Part shown: positions 15,343-30,831 of the stretch, one piece after another
Layout of the letters: every line of letters begins with the position of its first letter
How positions within the stretch are numbered: the stretch's first letter is position 1
Origin: Psychromonas sp.
GTDB taxonomy: Bacteria > Pseudomonadota > Gammaproteobacteria > Enterobacterales > Psychromonadaceae
Length of the DNA: 42,943 nucleotides
Direction of reading: 5' to 3'
NCBI GenBank assembly: GCA_013619145.1
Contig: JABXKR010000282.1
Span: forward strand, 1 to 42,943
The notes under the pieces: generated by a model
What the model was told of the DNA's origin: nothing
The model's database searches: none
What the model saw: only the letters and a program-made list of their open reading frames with translations
Made by a program: the position numbers and the translations under genes

Positions 15343-16402
15343 TAAAAAGAAAGAAACTAAAGAAACTAAAGAAACTAAAGCAGTCGCTACGGCTGGGTTT
15401 AATATTGAAAAATTAAGTGGTGTCGAAAAATCAGCCCTGTTGATGCTGAGTTTAACACCAGCAGATGCAGCACAAATATTTCGTAATTTAGAGCCTAAAC
15501 AGGTGCAAAAGTTGGGGATGGAGATGGCCGCTCTCGCAGACTCCTCTCAAGAGCGCGTATCAAGTGTGCATCGTGCATTTATCGAAGATATTCAAAAATA
15601 CAGTAATATCGGTTTAGATAGTGAAGACTTTGTTAGAGCATCATTAATTGAAGCGCTAGGTGAAGATAAAGCGGGCAATTTAGTTGACCAAATAATTCTT
15701 GGTAGTGGTTCAAAAGGTCTTGATTCATTAAAGTGGATGGATGCACGACAAGTAGCATCAATTATTCAAAATGAGCATCCGCAAATTCAAACCATTGTTT
15801 TATCATATTTAGATCCTGAGCAATCAGCTGAAATATTGACTCAATTCCCGGAAAAAAATCGCCTTGATCTTATGATGCGTATTGCTGATTTAGAAGAGGT
15901 ACAACCAGCCGCATTGCAAGAATTAAACGAGATTATGGAGAAACAGTTTGCCGGTCAAGCGGGTGCACAAGCTGCGAAAATGGGGGGCACTAAAGCTGCA
16001 GCTGATATTATGAACTATTTAGATACAGGTATCGAAGGTCCGTTAATGGACTCTTTACGTGAAACTGATGAAGATATGAGTCAGCAAATTCAAGATCTTA
16101 TGTTTGTCTTTGACAATCTTATTGATCTTGATGATCGTGGCACGCAAGTATTATTGCGTGAAGTACCTGGAGAGCAGTTACAACGGGCAATAAAAGGTGC
16201 GGATGATCAGCTTAAAGAGAAAATCTTTAAGAATATGTCGAAACGTGCTGCCGAAATGTTGCAGGATGATCTAGAAGCAATGGGGCCGATTCGTATCAGT
16301 GAAGTGGAAGCTGCTCAGAAAGAGATCCTTACCATTGCGCGTCGTTTATCCGATGCCGGTGAGATTATGTTAGGCGGCGGTGGTGGTGATGAATTCTTAT
16401 AA
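15335..16402 (+). CDS. fliG: FliG, flagellar motor switch protein
   Basis: A 355-residue C-ring protein that couples the rotor to the stators. N-, middle and C-terminal armadillo-like domains are recognisable (EKSALLMLSLTPADAAQIF; the EHPQIQTIVLSYL helix; and the torque helix LDDRGTQVLLREVPGEQL, with conserved charged residues). It ends in a Gly-rich ...GGGGGDEFL tail. The N-terminus has an unusual KETKETKETK stretch from three exact 9-bp units at 15350-15376. The last 66 coding bases and the following spacer are repeated three more times downstream (see 16337-16638). Confidence 0.97.
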   Translation: MNDKKKETKETKETKAVATAGFNIEKLSGVEKSALLMLSLTPADAAQIFRNLEPKQVQKLGMEMAALADSSQERVSSVHRAFIEDIQKYSNIGLDSEDFVRASLIEALGEDKAGNLVDQIILGSGSKGLDSLKWMDARQVASIIQNEHPQIQTIVLSYLDPEQSAEILTQFPEKNRLDLMMRIADLEEVQPAALQELNEIMEKQFAGQAGAQAAKMGGTKAAADIMNYLDTGIEGPLMDSLRETDEDMSQQIQDLMFVFDNLIDLDDRGTQVLLREVPGEQLQRAIKGADDQLKEKIFKNMSKRAAEMLQDDLEAMGPIRISEVEAAQKEILTIARRLSDAGEIMLGGGGGDEFL

Positions 16403-16638
16403 AGAATAAGATCCTGCTAATAATTCAGCGCGTCGTTTATCCGATGCCGGTGAGATTATGTTAGGTGGCGGTGGTGGTGATGAATTCTTATAAAGAATGC
16501 GAACCTGCTAATAATTCAGCGCGCCGTTTATCCGATGCCGGTGATGAATTCTTATAAAGAATACGATCCTGCTAATAATTCAGCGCGCCGTTTATCCGAT
16601 ACCGGTGAAATCATGTTAGGCGGTGAGTTTTTATAAAG
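16337..16638 (+). repeat. Tandem duplication of the fliG 3' end, four copies
   Basis: Copy 1 (16337-16427, 91 bp) contains the last 21 codons and stop of fliG plus 25 bases. Copy 2 (16428-16518, 91 bp) is nearly identical. Copy 3 (16519-16582, 64 bp) has lost 27 bases. Copy 4 (from 16583) is divergent and fades into the fliH leader. Every copy keeps a TTATAA or equivalent stop region, and all extra copies lie after the true fliG stop, so FliG itself is unaffected. Confidence 0.92.
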
Positions 16639-18951: not shown

Positions 18952-19398
18952 ATGGCAAGAGATGCATTACAACTTGTTTATGAACAGCGAGAAAAACAAG
19001 TAGAACAAGCATTACGTGCCTACCAAAAAGCACAACAGGTTTTGTTTGAACAGCGCAGTCAACTGCAAAATCTCCATCAGTATCGTCGCCAATATATCTC
19101 CCAGTTAACTGAAAAAGGCTCACAGGGTTTATCGATTTCAGAGCTTGGTAAATATCAGCAGTTTATTGTGCAAATTGATCAAGGGATTACTAAACAGCAA
19201 CAAGGTTTGGTGAAGTTTGAATATGATGTTCATGCCCACAAAAAGTTGTGGATGGAAAGTCAAGTGGGCTGCAAAGCAATGGCAATGCTACTTGAGAAAA
19301 AAGCCTTACAAAAAGCGAAAATTGCAGATCGTAAAGAGCAACAACTACTCGATGAGTTTGCCACCTTTCAATATTTTCAAAAAAGATCCTCGATCTAA
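18952..19398 (+). CDS. fliJ: FliJ, flagellar export chaperone/ATPase stalk
   Basis: A 148-residue Gln/Lys-rich, almost entirely alpha-helical coiled-coil protein (for example EQALRAYQKAQQVLFEQRSQ). This is typical of FliJ, the gamma-like stalk in the FliI ring. Sequence conservation in this family is low, so position after fliI carries much of the weight. The ribosome site AAGGA lies upstream of the ATG. It is the last gene before a 189-base gap containing a sigma54 promoter. Confidence 0.9.
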   Translation: MARDALQLVYEQREKQVEQALRAYQKAQQVLFEQRSQLQNLHQYRRQYISQLTEKGSQGLSISELGKYQQFIVQIDQGITKQQQGLVKFEYDVHAHKKLWMESQVGCKAMAMLLEKKALQKAKIADRKEQQLLDEFATFQYFQKRSSI

Positions 19399-19587: not shown

Positions 19588-21237
19588 ATGATGCAATCAA
19601 TATTATTAACCAGCCCAGCCAAATCGCAGGCAAATGAACGTTTGTCTGATACCTCTACAGTTGACGGTGAAGTTAAAAGTGATGAGTTGTTAAAAGAGGA
19701 AGGGCTACGTTTCTCTGATTTACTTGGTTCCGTGTTAGCTGGCAAAGGAAAAGAATGTAAAGATGCAGTCGCTGAGGAAGATTTAGCGGCAGAAGCTGAG
19801 ATTGACAGTGATCTTTTGCTTGATAGCTTAAGTGATGAAGTTGACAGTGAAGTTTTACCTGAAGAGCTGGATGTTAAATCAGCGGATTCTCAGCAAGACA
19901 GAGCAGAACAAACATTTGAAAATGAATTGTTAGTTGAACAGATTAAAAGTGTTGAAACTACTGAAAGTGTTGCAAGTGTTGCAAGTGTTGCAAGTGCTGA
20001 AAGTACTGAAAGTGTTGCAAGTTCTGCAACTGCAGTAAGTGCTGCAAGTGTTGAAAGTGTTGAAAGTGCTGCAAGTGCTGCAAGTACTGCAAGTACTGCA
20101 AGTACTGCAAGTACTGCAAGTGCAGCAAGTGCAGCAAGTGCAGCAAGTGCAGCAAGTGCTGCAAGTGCTGCAAGTGCTGCAAGTGCTGCAAGTGCTGCAA
20201 GTGCTGCAAGTGCAGCAAGTACTGAAAGTGTTGAAAGTGCCGCAAGTGAACAGCCTTATTCAGATCCGATTCTGATGGGAAAAGCATTAACTGTGAATAC
20301 CATGGATAAAGGCTATCTGTCAGAAGTTGAAGAGCTTAACGAGCAGTCTAACTCGAAGGAAGCTGAGAAGGATCAAGCTAACCCGCCAATTCTTGCGCAG
20401 ATAGAAGCTGCGCTAAAAATTGATACGCAGGTGACAGAGTCACAAAAAGTGGTAAAAGTAGCTAGTGAAAACCCCGAGTTATCCATACAGATAAAAAAAG
20501 GACAAGAAAAAGATTCAATCAATCTTAGTAAATCCTCACTCGCACCTGAAAGTACGAGTTTAAAAGCAAGTGAAACTGAAAAAACTTTAGTGAATGAATC
20601 TTTACAAGCAGAAAAACTCCAACCAGTAATGGACAAACTTGAACAAGTTTCATTTACAAATAAAAGTGAAGTAGAGCGCTCCCCGTTAACAGCTCCAATT
20701 GATAGCAGTGCGCTACGTTCAACAAATGTGAATGCCTCTAATCTAGACAAATTGATTAATCAAAATTTACAAAGTGCGACACAATCGTCGCTACTGCAGC
20801 AACCGTTAAATCTACAGGAAAAGCATGCTTCTGCCTTATTGGGTGAACGTATTCTGATGATGATTGGGCAAGGTAAACAAGAGGTGCTGATTCGCTTAGA
20901 TCCTGCTGAACTTGGCTCAATGCATATTAAATTACAAGTGCAGCAAGATCAGGTACAGTTAGCTATTCAAACACAAGTCGGGCAAAGCCGCGATATTATC
21001 GAGCAGAATTTACCAAGATTACGAGAGCAACTTGCGCAGCAGGGCGTTAGCTTAGGAGAAACGAGTGTTGAGCAACAAAGTCAGCAACAAAATAAAAATA
21101 ATCAAGGAAGAGATGAACTGCAACATAGGAGTGGCATGTTAGCGAATGATAGCTCGTTGCAAGTAATGGACGATAAAAGCGAGTGGATAGCCGCTAAAAT
21201 ACCGCTTCCAGCTCAAGGAATTGATTATTATGCATAA
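19588..21237 (+). CDS. fliK: FliK, flagellar hook-length control protein, with Ala/Ser repeat tract
   Basis: A 549-residue secreted ruler that measures hook length and switches export specificity through FlhB. The C-terminal Flg_hook domain is clear (GERILMMIGQGKQEVLIRLD, PAELGSMHIKLQVQQDQVQL, then the helix ending LREQLAQQGVSLGETSVEQQ). The N-terminal half is poorly conserved and acidic, and contains a 99-residue Ser-Ala-Ala/Ser-Val-Glu type tract from 33 tandem 9-bp units (19951-20247). Start chosen at ATG 19588, with GAGAG seven bases upstream; an in-frame TTG at 19567 is less likely. Confidence 0.93.
   Translation: MMQSILLTSPAKSQANERLSDTSTVDGEVKSDELLKEEGLRFSDLLGSVLAGKGKECKDAVAEEDLAAEAEIDSDLLLDSLSDEVDSEVLPEELDVKSADSQQDRAEQTFENELLVEQIKSVETTESVASVASVASAESTESVASSATAVSAASVESVESAASAASTASTASTASTASAASAASAASAASAASAASAASAASAASAASAASTESVESAASEQPYSDPILMGKALTVNTMDKGYLSEVEELNEQSNSKEAEKDQANPPILAQIEAALKIDTQVTESQKVVKVASENPELSIQIKKGQEKDSINLSKSSLAPESTSLKASETEKTLVNESLQAEKLQPVMDKLEQVSFTNKSEVERSPLTAPIDSSALRSTNVNASNLDKLINQNLQSATQSSLLQQPLNLQEKHASALLGERILMMIGQGKQEVLIRLDPAELGSMHIKLQVQQDQVQLAIQTQVGQSRDIIEQNLPRLREQLAQQGVSLGETSVEQQSQQQNKNNQGRDELQHRSGMLANDSSLQVMDDKSEWIAAKIPLPAQGIDYYA
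19951..20247 (+). repeat. 33-unit 9-bp minisatellite inside fliK
   Basis: Continuous units of consensus GCTGCAAGT with variants GTTGAAAGT, ACTGCAAGT and GCAGCAAGT. They are most uniform from 20122 to 20211, where units are almost identical. The period is a multiple of three, so gain or loss of units keeps the fliK frame. Long ORFs on both strands here are by-products of the repeat. Confidence 0.97.
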
Positions 21238-21499: not shown

Positions 21500-22030
21500 A
21501 TGGCTGAAGAAGAAAATGAAGAGCTTTCGTTAGAAGATCAAGATAGCGCGCAAGGTGGAAGCAAAAAAAAGCTTATTATCATTATTGCAGCTGCTGTTTT
21601 GTTATTAGCTGCTGCAGTTGCCAGTTACTTTTTATTTTTTAGCGCTGAAAACGAGGCTGTAGCAGAGCAGACTGAGGAACAGGCTCCTGCGGATGATGCA
21701 AGCAATAATGTTACTGCAACTTATGTTGCGATGCCCCGTCCTTTTGTTTTTAATGTGCAGGATGGCAAGCGTGACCGCTTAGTGCAGATCAAGGTGCAAC
21801 TGATGGTGCGTGGTAGTAAAAACGCAGAGTTAGCTAAAAAACATATTCCTTTATTAGAGGGAACATTAGTACGTGTATTTGGTGCTGCGACCGTTGAGCA
21901 ATTACGTAGTCCGGCAGGTAAAGGACAACTTAGGATTTATTCATTAGAGGCGTTAAATGAAGCGACTTCTAGGGTTGAAAATAAAGCGTTAATTCATTCC
22001 GTACTGTTTACCGGCTTTGTTTTACAGTAG
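21500..22030 (+). CDS. fliL: FliL, flagellar basal body-associated protein
   Basis: A 176-residue single-pass inner-membrane protein that surrounds and supports the stator units. It has an acidic cytoplasmic N-terminus, one helix at about residues 24-48 (KLIIIIAAAVLLLAAAVASY), then the periplasmic stomatin-like FliL domain (PFVFNVQDGKRDRLVQIKVQ and following). The end VLFTGFVLQ is a typical FliL terminus. An AAGGA ribosome site precedes the ATG. The last 87 bases are part of the first unit of a tandem triplication that runs into fliM. Confidence 0.95.
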   Translation: MAEEENEELSLEDQDSAQGGSKKKLIIIIAAAVLLLAAAVASYFLFFSAENEAVAEQTEEQAPADDASNNVTATYVAMPRPFVFNVQDGKRDRLVQIKVQLMVRGSKNAELAKKHIPLLEGTLVRVFGAATVEQLRSPAGKGQLRIYSLEALNEATSRVENKALIHSVLFTGFVLQ

Positions 22031-22360
22031 TTGTTTTATAAGAACTGAATTTTTCATGGCAGATCTATTATAGCAAAAGGGATTCGCAGCACTTAATGAA
22101 GTAAACGTAATATTAGAAAACAACGCATTAATTTATACCGTATAATTTGCCGGCTCTGTTTTACCGGCGTTGTTTTATCTGAGTAGGATTTCTGATGGCG
22201 GCTCTGTTATTGTTAAATGAATTAGAAGCGCTTAATGAAGTAACCGCAATATTAGAAAACAAAGCATTAATTTATGCCGTATTATTTGCCGGCTTTGTTT
22301 TACAGTTGTTGTTTTACAAGAATAGGATTTTTCATGGCAGATCTATTATCCCAAGACGAA
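21944..22360 (+). repeat. 139-bp tandem triplication of the fliL-fliM junction
   Basis: Three units start at 21944, 22083 and 22222, each carrying a fliL tail, spacer, ribosome-site region and fliM start. The three ATG positions 22056, 22195 and 22334 are exactly 139 bases apart. Unit 1 holds the true fliL end; its fliM start is stopped after five codons (TAG). Unit 2 has stops in the fliL tail. Unit 3 leads to the real fliM, and its fliL-like stop TAG has become TTG. The units are clearly diverged, so the event is not brand new. This accounts for the 303-base gap 22031-22333. Confidence 0.93.
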
Positions 22361-22365
22361 ATTGA
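22195..22365 (+). CDS. Small chimeric ORF (fliM start fused to fliL tail), doubtful gene
   Basis: A 56-codon ORF created by the triplication. It starts at the unit-2 copy of the fliM ATG, with a retained AGGA-like site, and reads MAALLLLNELEALNEV, then the unit-3 fliL tail (ENKALIYAVLFAGFVLQ). Because the fliL stop is lost it continues into the real fliM start region in another frame, ending at 22365. It would be a small membrane-leaning peptide. There is no sign of selection; it may be translated by accident or couple to fliM. Confidence 0.25.
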   Translation: MAALLLLNELEALNEVTAILENKALIYAVLFAGFVLQLLFYKNRIFHGRSIIPRRN

Positions 22366-23362
22366 TGCACTCTTACATGGTGTTGATGATGTTGAAGAGG
22401 ATGTCGTTGAAAGTGAAGGAGATGGTGATGAATCCCTTGTCCATTTCGACTTTTCATCGCAAGACCGTATTGTTCGAGGTCGAATGCCAACACTTGAGTT
22501 GGTTAATGAACGCTTTGCCCGTCATTTAAGAATTAGCTTATTTAATATGTTGCGCCATACCGCAGAAGTCTCCATTAACGGGGTACAAATGCTTAAATTT
22601 GGCGAATATTTACATACGCTTTTTGTTCCAACGAGTTTAAATATGGTACGTTTCCGTCCATTAAAAGGGACTGCGTTAGTGACCATGGAAGCGCGTTTGG
22701 TTTTTATTTTAGTAGAGAATTTTTTTGGTGGTGATGGCCGTTATCATGCCAAGATAGAAGGACGTGAGTTTACACCGACTGAACGCCGTATTATCCAAAT
22801 GCTGTTGAAAATAGTTTTTGAAGATTACCATGATGCATGGGCACCAGTAATGGATGCTGAATTTGAATATTTGGATTCAGAAGTAAACCCGGCAATGGCA
22901 AATATTGTCAGCCCAACGGAAGTAATTGTTGTAAATTCCTTTCATATCGAGCTTGATGGCGGTGGGGGTGATTTCCATATCGCAATGCCTTATTCAATGT
23001 TAGAGCCGATTCGTGAATTGCTTGATGCGGGGGTGCAAAGTGATAAAGAAGATACCGATCAGCGCTGGAGCCAGGCATTACAAGATGAAATTATGGATGT
23101 CTCGGTTGATTTTACCGCTAAGTTATTGGAAAAAGAGATACCGTTGCGTGAAATGATGGGATTAAAAGCTGGTGATATTATCCCAGTTGATCTTCCTGAA
23201 ACAATGCTTGTGTCTGTTGAAGGTTTGCCGACATTCAGGGCTAATTTAGGTCAAGCAAATGAAAATTTAGCTTTGAAAATTACTGAACGAATCGCCCGAC
23301 CCGAGATGCAGACCAGTAAGCTGCAATTAGATAATATAAAAGACAGTCCGGATCATAATTAA
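22334..23362 (+). CDS. fliM: FliM, flagellar motor switch protein
   Basis: A 342-residue C-ring protein. The N-terminal CheY-P binding peptide is LLSQDEIDALLHG (residues 4-16), followed by the CheC-like middle domain (including PTLELVNERFARHLRISLFN) and a C-terminal SpoA domain (PLREMMGLKAGDIIPVDLPE). I use the ATG at 22334, which has TAGGA six bases upstream and gives the canonical MADLLSQ start. The ATGs at 22056 and 22195 are duplicated copies that cannot be read into this frame. Confidence 0.96.
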   Translation: MADLLSQDEIDALLHGVDDVEEDVVESEGDGDESLVHFDFSSQDRIVRGRMPTLELVNERFARHLRISLFNMLRHTAEVSINGVQMLKFGEYLHTLFVPTSLNMVRFRPLKGTALVTMEARLVFILVENFFGGDGRYHAKIEGREFTPTERRIIQMLLKIVFEDYHDAWAPVMDAEFEYLDSEVNPAMANIVSPTEVIVVNSFHIELDGGGGDFHIAMPYSMLEPIRELLDAGVQSDKEDTDQRWSQALQDEIMDVSVDFTAKLLEKEIPLREMMGLKAGDIIPVDLPETMLVSVEGLPTFRANLGQANENLALKITERIARPEMQTSKLQLDNIKDSPDHN

Positions 23363-29477: not shown

Positions 29478-30008
29478 ATGAAAATTAAACGTTTTTTTGC
29501 AAAAGATATGCGCACCGCAATGACCGAAGTAAAAGAGGTGTTAGGACCTGATGCGGTTATCATGTCCAATAAAAAAGTGGTCGGCGGTATTGAAATTGTT
29601 GCTGCGGTTGATTATCAGACAGAACAAGCAGAGTTACAAAAAAACAAACCAAAAGAGGATCCGTTTTCATCTTTATTAGATGATAATGTGCAACTTTCTT
29701 CGCAAGCTAATAAAACACAAAAAGCACCTCTAAAATTACAAAAAAGCACTCGTAACGGTGCAAAAGAGAGTGGTGAAGATTTTGCTAAATCATTGAACTC
29801 ATTTTTTGGAAAAGTGAATGCACAGCAGGAAAAAAATAACGCACGTAAACAACCTCAAAAGAGAAATGAGTTAGCCGATTTTTCGTTAACAGAGAGTAAA
29901 CCCGCGGCAGGCTTAAATCAGCCTAAAACGCTTGCGGAACAGCAAAATTGGGCACAAAAAGAGCGAGCACGAAGCACTGCACTTGATGTGGCAGGAGATG
30001 GAGCGTAA
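29478..30008 (+). CDS. flhF: FlhF, N-terminal part (gene split by a frameshift)
   Basis: The first 176 residues of the signal-recognition-like GTPase that sets polar flagellar placement. The B-domain start MKIKRFFAKDMRTAMTEVKE, then VLGPDAVIMSNKKVVGGIEI, is typical, followed by a Lys/Gln/Ser-rich linker. The frame ends at TAA 30006-30008 after about twenty residues with no family character. The NG GTPase domain continues in the +1 frame. Removing one base from the A5 run at 29956-29960 joins the parts into a single 450-residue protein. This may be a real mutation, a sequencing error or programmed frameshifting. Confidence 0.85.
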   Translation: MKIKRFFAKDMRTAMTEVKEVLGPDAVIMSNKKVVGGIEIVAAVDYQTEQAELQKNKPKEDPFSSLLDDNVQLSSQANKTQKAPLKLQKSTRNGAKESGEDFAKSLNSFFGKVNAQQEKNNARKQPQKRNELADFSLTESKPAAGLNQPKTLAEQQNWAQKERARSTALDVAGDGA

Positions 30009-30831
30009 AGAGCCGATTAGAGCAATGGTTATCAAATGGTTAAGCAGTGCTGGTTTTTCCAACGATATAGCAGATCAACTTGCGAGTTATATCCCAGAAG
30101 ACGCTTCAGCTACTGAAATTCAGGATTATATTCAGGCATTATTACAAGATAAGATTTGTATTGGCAAAAATGAAATTTTAGCTCAAGGCGGGGCTATTGC
30201 TCTGTTAGGTCCTACTGGGGTTGGTAAAACGACGACTATTGCTAAACTTGCCGCGCAATTTGCGATGAAATATGGTGCAGATCAAGTTGCACTCATTACA
30301 ACGGATACTTATCGTATTGGCGCACATGAACAGTTAGCAACTTATGGTAAAATTATGGGCTGCAGCGTCCGTGTAGCAAAAGATGCAGATGAACTTTCGG
30401 AGATTTTATATCAGTTTAGAGAAAAACGTCTGGTGCTTATTGATACTGCTGGTATGGGGCAGCGCGATGTCAGGCTCTCAGAGCAATTAGATACACTAAT
30501 GCGTAATAGCCGAGTTAATATTCGCAGCTATTTGGTGATCTCCTCTACAGCGCAACGCAGAGTTATTGAAGAAGCGCTCGAACACTTTAAACGTATTGCA
30601 CTTTCTGGCTGCATATTAACCAAAGTAGATGAAAGTATTGGTTTAGGGGAAGTGCTTAGCGTTACCATGCAGCATGCATTACCAATTAGCTATGTGACAA
30701 CCGGGCAGAGAGTGCCTGAAGATATCGAAATAGCCAAAACTGAAAATTTAATCAGTGGCACATTAGATATGATGAATCAGTTATTTGAACAACAGCAACA
30801 CCAATGGTTTAGTAGCTTTGATAACGAATAA
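29932..30831 (+). CDS. flhF: FlhF, C-terminal GTPase part (in the +1 frame)
   Basis: This frame encodes the FlhF NG domain: LMWQEMERKEPIRAMVIKWL at the N-domain start, P-loop GPTGVGKTTTIAKLAA, DTYRIGAHEQL, LIDTAGMGQRD and the TKVDE guanine-specificity motif. All SRP-GTPase motifs are intact, which argues that the protein is still made or was very recently. A start at TTG 29932 or a later ATG (29986) would yield the GTPase alone without the B-domain, but neither is obviously preceded by a ribosome site. It is followed by flhG after 36 bases. Confidence 0.85.
   Translation: MRNSKIGHKKSEHEALHLMWQEMERKEPIRAMVIKWLSSAGFSNDIADQLASYIPEDASATEIQDYIQALLQDKICIGKNEILAQGGAIALLGPTGVGKTTTIAKLAAQFAMKYGADQVALITTDTYRIGAHEQLATYGKIMGCSVRVAKDADELSEILYQFREKRLVLIDTAGMGQRDVRLSEQLDTLMRNSRVNIRSYLVISSTAQRRVIEEALEHFKRIALSGCILTKVDESIGLGEVLSVTMQHALPISYVTTGQRVPEDIEIAKTENLISGTLDMMNQLFEQQQHQWFSSFDNE
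29956..29960 (+). other. Probable flhF frameshift position (A5 homopolymer)
   Basis: Reading four A residues instead of five fuses AEQQNWAQK in the first frame to SEHEALHLMWQEMERKEP in the second without a gap. Any single-base indel up to the stop at 30006 could also restore the frame, so the position is a best guess. Confidence 0.55.

Follow-up and report, generated by a model that had tools for sequence, protein, structure and literature searches.

A 9-bp repeat array in the FliK ruler of a Psychromonas strain, probably one of several in-frame expansions in the genus

The flagellar hook-length control gene (fliK) of a Psychromonas sp. strain contains 33 in-frame 9-bp units that probably represent a net insertion by tandem duplication in the ruler region of FliK, lengthening the hook, and that would count among several expansions by in-frame repeats through which this ruler has changed between Psychromonas species. 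The array lies in a window of 42,943 nucleotides (the whole stretch of DNA analyzed). We envisage that the array grew by local tandem duplication, whether by slippage or by unequal recombination, in the N-terminal ruler region, where length is tolerated; in other respects this FliK is ordinary. Such growth would have added 99 residues to a protein of ~450 aa with its conserved N-terminus and switch domain left untouched and, if the Salmonella ruler rule applies, would make the hook ~20 nm longer than in the array-free state.

The array and its host gene

The gene, its neighbors and the segments of FliK discussed below are located in the window as follows.

18952..19398, + strand: fliJ, the 5′ neighbor of fliK
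19588..21237, + strand: fliK (flagellar hook-length control protein, 549 aa), with adjacent ATG codons at 19588 and 19591
19684..19737, + strand: conserved N-terminal segment, residues 33–50 around the invariant F42, with a helix at 32–50 in the predicted model
19948..20244, + strand: 33 in-frame 9-bp units (ANT-NNN-GNA), 99 residues (121–219) of FliK, predicted to be disordered
20845..21093, + strand: Flg_hook (PF02120), the C-terminal export-switch core with the RLDPAELG motif
21500..22030, + strand: fliL, the 3′ neighbor of fliK

The host gene is fliK, as the initial annotation had called it. PF02120 matches residues 420–502 (E 3.5e-22; 78.5 bits against a cut-off of 29.8), the solved FliK chain PDB 2rrl matches residues 392–505 (E 6.8e-10), and within the flagellar cluster the gene sits between fliJ and fliL, as expected for FliK. 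PRK10118, the NCBI equivalog model for FliK, scores 43.7 bits, below its cut-off of 396; we nevertheless retain the identity on the strength of the Flg_hook domain and the position between fliJ and fliL, because PRK10118 models the full length of the protein, whose N-part is strongly diverged here. The variable region is flanked by conserved blocks, namely the N-terminal stretch that contains F42, a motif around residues 272–286 and the C-terminal domain; hardly any conservation is found between the conserved ends. The segment at residues 33–50 is likely part of the export-signal region, a reading for which a study of early-subunit export signals provided background (PMC8983047). The array (residues 121–219) follows the N-terminal export region and precedes the switch domain (PF02120 at 420–502), the placement likewise proposed at the outset. 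The predicted structural model is weak overall (mean pLDDT 46.1) and fairly confident only in the C-terminal core.

The array is regular in its frame and degenerate in its units. Tandem Repeats Finder (TRF) reports it at 19961–20248 of the window (period 9, 32.0 copies, 87% matches, zero indels, score 366). Chance origin was rejected, since 300 codon-shuffled versions of fliK scored at most 60 in TRF. The 33 in-frame units that the initial annotation described are real, and its interval of 19951–20247 is one codon off; its Ala/Ser/Val/Glu list omits Thr, which is common as well (9 residues, counted by eye). All 33 units are identical at positions 1, 3, 7 and 9; taken whole, they fall into 11 variants, the most deviant being the second (TTE) and the tenth (TAV). 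The longest exact repeat inside the array is 53 bp, at an offset of 9 (a perfect stretch of ~62 bp), and the array should therefore be resolvable by ordinary short reads; the source genome is a draft of 336 contigs, 85.6% complete. In the searched part of that genome the unit occurs nowhere else, and all 19 three-unit matches with up to three mismatches lie inside the array. Mean pLDDT per ten-residue block is 32–39 across the array, and the predicted model gives a disordered coil in place of the helix that we had considered. An antisense ORF at 19958–20287 (109 aa) was rejected as a gene and attributed to the repeat as a by-product. A second small in-frame minisatellite is present in the cluster, a 9-bp AAAGAAACT repeated 3.4 times at 15350–15380, encoding KET units in the N-terminus of fliG.

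The order and codon usage of the units bear the marks of duplication. Identical units are adjacent 15 times, compared with 3.9 times in shuffled order (0/20,000 shuffles reach 15), and synonymous variants of the SAA unit are also clustered (P = 0.018). Serine within the array is encoded by AGT in 31 of 32 cases, and the remainder of fliK uses all six serine codons. Identical units lying side by side, together with the AGT bias, thus point to duplication at the DNA level, not to selection on residues. As single-stranded DNA the array folds better than its shuffles (z = −2.68; 2/200 shuffles as good), and this folding could possibly aid slippage.

Length comparison favors reading the array as a net insertion in FliK. 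Without it, the window's FliK would be 450 aa long. The six FliKs that score closest to it measure 452–473 aa and have no repeat at TRF score 60 (P. antarctica, P. ossibalaenae, P. aquimarina, Urea-02u-13, P. hadalis and the genome G007). The next closest FliK, that of P. marina, is longer (610 aa) yet repeat-free.

FliK length and repeats in Psychromonas and beyond

FliK varies in length almost entirely through its N-part. Our comparison set comprised 20 genomes, namely that of the window and 19 of 23 congeners (one genome per species in the collections searched; G001, G003 and G021 had no match and G005 a weak one). For 2B2-76 (704 aa) and P. antarctica (469 aa) we used the conserved start, not the longer ORFs (758 and 480 aa). 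Across this set the shortest FliK has 446 aa and the longest 800 aa; the C-part measures 138–145 aa in 20/20 (CV 0.012), and the N-part 307–661 aa (CV 0.245). The nearest relative is P. antarctica, whose FliK is 64% identical over residues 263–549 and whose nucleotide identity to the window is 83.8% over fliI, fliP, flhA and fliM.

Tandem repeats are frequent in fliK of these species, and their units mostly differ in period and sequence. At a TRF score of at least 60 they occur in 10/20 genomes. In nine of these the repeat lies in the N-part (periods of 9, 15, 24, 30, 42/84, 75, 84, 126 and 129 bp); one genome has a C-tail repeat with a period of 21 bp. All of the periods are multiples of three. 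The 24-bp repeat of RZ5 is present in the whole-region scan and absent from the gene-only scan. At the same threshold, repeats were found in 8/289 instances of 15 other flagellar genes, half of them in fliH (P = 3e-9, Fisher's test, which ignores shared ancestry and gene length). In four congeners fliH carries a 24-bp (eight-codon) repeat (L041 6185–6250, L042 14020–14066, L045 13871–13931 and L048 14750–14837).

Comparisons of close pairs suggest that repeats account for FliK length differences only in part. SP041 and 2B2-76 share 93.9% nucleotide identity over fliI, fliP, flhA and fliM, and their FliKs are 497 and 704 aa long; the 207-aa gap consists mostly of a 43-aa unit present once in SP041 and five times in 2B2-76, the fifth copy being more diverged. 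P. arctica (528 aa) and SA13A (800 aa) differ greatly in FliK length at 93.4% identity, and no array accounts for the difference. P. aquimarina and P. ossibalaenae, both repeat-free, differ by 2 aa at 92.1% identity. The contribution of repeats is only partial because SA13A and P. marina have long FliKs with zero repeats at TRF score 60.

Inheritance of one repeat across the genus was rejected, since the closest FliKs lack the array and the other repeats mostly differ in unit and place. The repeats of B3M02 and 14N.309, with units of 126 and 84 bp, have the motif FTFDN in common and possibly one origin, so independent origins may number fewer than nine. Judged from these sequences, Psychromonas appears to have changed its FliK ruler several times via simple duplications. 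The pattern is one of change between species through several kinds of repeat, rather than a conserved switch.

Repeat growth in this genus is neither confined to fliK nor general to linkers. TolA is an envelope protein that is not known to act as a ruler, and ZipA is a protein with a long linker. Tandem repeats are present in tolA in 18/23 Psychromonas genomes (loci L105–L127; periods 15–117 bp; a second tolA match in G023 is left out of the count), the window's own genome having none, and in zipA in 0/23. Thus fliK is not unique, yet linkers are not uniformly repeat-prone. The idea that fliK is the sole repeat-prone gene was rejected, tolA repeats being the more frequent.

Repeats in fliK are also found outside the genus. 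Within the same order they occur in 3/10 loci (L022, L026 and L031, with scores of 102, 63 and 80), 6/10 loci being cut at the 5′ end. Across the class they are weak and occur in 2/30 loci (scores 65 and 86; 4/30 cut at the 5′ end), a biased set because, of 184 genomes searched, 100 gave a match and the set consists of the 30 that scored highest, one of these 30 from the same order. On these sequences, the view of fliK repeats as a Psychromonas specialty is weakened. In E. coli, 5,136/5,426 genomes have a fliK match. In a sample of 60 taken at even steps through the match ranking, fliK is a single piece of 1,128 bp with 96–100% identity in 59, the remaining one being a fragment, and fliK of E. 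coli K-12 is repeat-free. The contrast in length with Psychromonas is only suggestive, because E. coli strains are closer to one another than are the Psychromonas pairs.

Hook length and alternative explanations

Published work on Salmonella offers a scale for what the array might do. FliK variants of 363–785 aa give hooks of 42–135 nm, each inserted residue adding 0.2 nm (PMC6126814). Hook length also changes when FliKN gains or loses residues or when the linker is shortened by deletion, and insertions into FliKN lengthen the hook (PMC6972891, PMC6126814). Wild-type hooks measure 52.7 ± 4.5 nm (PMC6972891). The relation between FliK length and hook length that the initial annotation invoked agrees with this slope. 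At the Salmonella slope the array would be expected to be worth ~20 nm of hook and one unit ~0.6 nm, so a gain or loss of one unit would hardly show against a scatter of 4.5 nm. The slope was measured on alpha-helical inserts from YscP, the needle ruler of the Yersinia injectisome, and the array is predicted to be coil; the slope may thus differ here. For YscP, helical content matters, according to the title of a work cited in PMC3469391.

Salmonella also suggests what such changes might cost. Swimming speed in liquid is maximal over FliK lengths of 363–480 aa, and mutants with hooks of non-wild-type length are impaired in soft-agar spreading (PMC6126814). Small changes in copy number may therefore matter little and large ones may carry a cost, and the poor spreading of these mutants would speak against free tolerance of long rulers. 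From flhF and an adjacent MinD-like gene we infer that the strain has a polar flagellum, whose response to hook length may differ from that in Salmonella; in PMC6126814 it is anticipated that flicking by bacteria with polar flagella would change with hook length.

Neutral growth of a spacer is the alternative that we take most seriously, as a minority possibility of some substance: the array would be slippage debris in a disordered linker, and the hook would be affected slightly if at all because the coil is compacted, stretched or bypassed. The predicted disorder of the array would suit this account, as do the same repeat habit in tolA of the genus and the scant conservation between the ends of FliK. 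The absence of repeats from zipA, for all its long linker, argues against it. So do the altered hook lengths of Salmonella with insertions or deletions in FliKN or deletions in the linker (PMC6972891, PMC6126814). The initial annotation had gone further in the opposite direction and proposed a contingency-like locus, a hypermutable array selected for generating heritable hook-length variants within the population. The perfect stretch of ~62 bp within its 33 units, the folding of its single strand beyond that of shuffles (z = −2.68) and the contraction of 15-bp repeats in E. coli tolA at 6.9e-5 (PMC3477136) lend this idea some credit. We nonetheless find it very unlikely, given that the 33 units are degenerate, with 11 variants, that the array is missing from the closest relative and that a single unit would be worth just ~0.6 nm. 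Phase-variable contingency loci switch on and off by frame or promoter. They resemble the window's fliK in having simple intragenic repeats, whereas its 9-bp unit keeps all whole-unit changes in frame, so that a change in copy number does not switch expression on or off, and in this respect the array differs from such loci.

Least probable of all, in our estimation, is that the array reflects relaxed selection or an artifact, either decay that accompanies loss of motility in this strain or misassembly. The genome is indeed an incomplete draft, tandem duplications are also found at the fliG–fliH and fliL–fliM junctions, and flhF (29478–30831 of the window) is split over two frames: it forms two overlapping ORFs with a change of frame and ~30–40 residues missing at the join by comparison with P. 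antarctica and P. aquimarina. This break may be a real lesion or an assembly error and, if real, could entail abnormal placement or formation of the flagellum; the strain's flagellation is uncertain because flhF is frame-broken in the assembly. Against decay or misassembly, the array stays in frame across 297 bp with the C domain intact, its longest exact internal repeat is just 53 bp, the genome has one hook-protein match and three flagellin-family matches, and repeats occur in the same region in other Psychromonas genomes.

An extension of the preferred reading, tandem duplication that lengthens the ruler, is that the Psychromonas ruler evolves by repeat growth and loss under selection, making hook length an evolvable, continuously tuned trait that shifts the flick threshold between species and perhaps populations. 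We consider this unlikely. If true, N-parts of 307–661 aa would, at 0.2 nm per residue, correspond to hooks differing by ~70 nm, and the buckling (flick) threshold of a polar flagellum would change accordingly. Hook length is otherwise regarded as a tightly optimized constant; the Psychromonas ruler appears to have been changed repeatedly. Sister pairs of the SP041/2B2-76 type would offer a native-protein test of the ruler model in nature and of the tuning of swimming by hook length.

Known repeat systems and neighboring duplications

Natural ruler variation driven by repeats is not new in kind, YscP being the precedent (PMC3469391). YscP contains repeat motifs of 14, 25 and 46 aa and measures 452 and 538 aa in two strains, needle length is linear with YscP size, and repeat number varies within Y. 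enterocolitica. YscP and the window's FliK are alike as type III rulers sized by in-frame repeats; they differ in that YscP serves an injectisome, has longer repeat units and has demonstrated variation within a species, whereas the FliK repeats were compared between species. The engineered Salmonella variants involve the same protein as that of the window, with the difference that they were made in the laboratory with alpha-helical pieces of YscP, while the window's FliK has natural Ala/Ser-rich repeats predicted to be disordered. E. coli tolA likewise has in-frame repeats, whose copy number shifts the phenotype by degrees; unlike the window's fliK, its units are 15 bp long and their instability has been measured (PMC3477136). 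Our literature searches on FliK repeats gave no report among the matches listed, and the portions of PMC2846917 and PMC6913195 available contain nothing on them. What seems new here is a flagellar ruler lengthened by natural repeats, seemingly more than once in a genus.

Other duplications lie close by in the flagellar cluster. Three diverged copies with a spacing of 139 bp (68% and 78% identity to the first) run from the 3′ end of fliL to the 5′ region of fliM (window 21943–22371); P. antarctica has none at this junction at TRF score 60. Tandem copies with spacings of 91 bp and 64 bp cover the 3′ end of fliG and the fliG–fliH spacer (window 16337–16623), and P. ossibalaenae has an 88-bp tandem repeat adjoining the start of fliH (L034 13313–13517).
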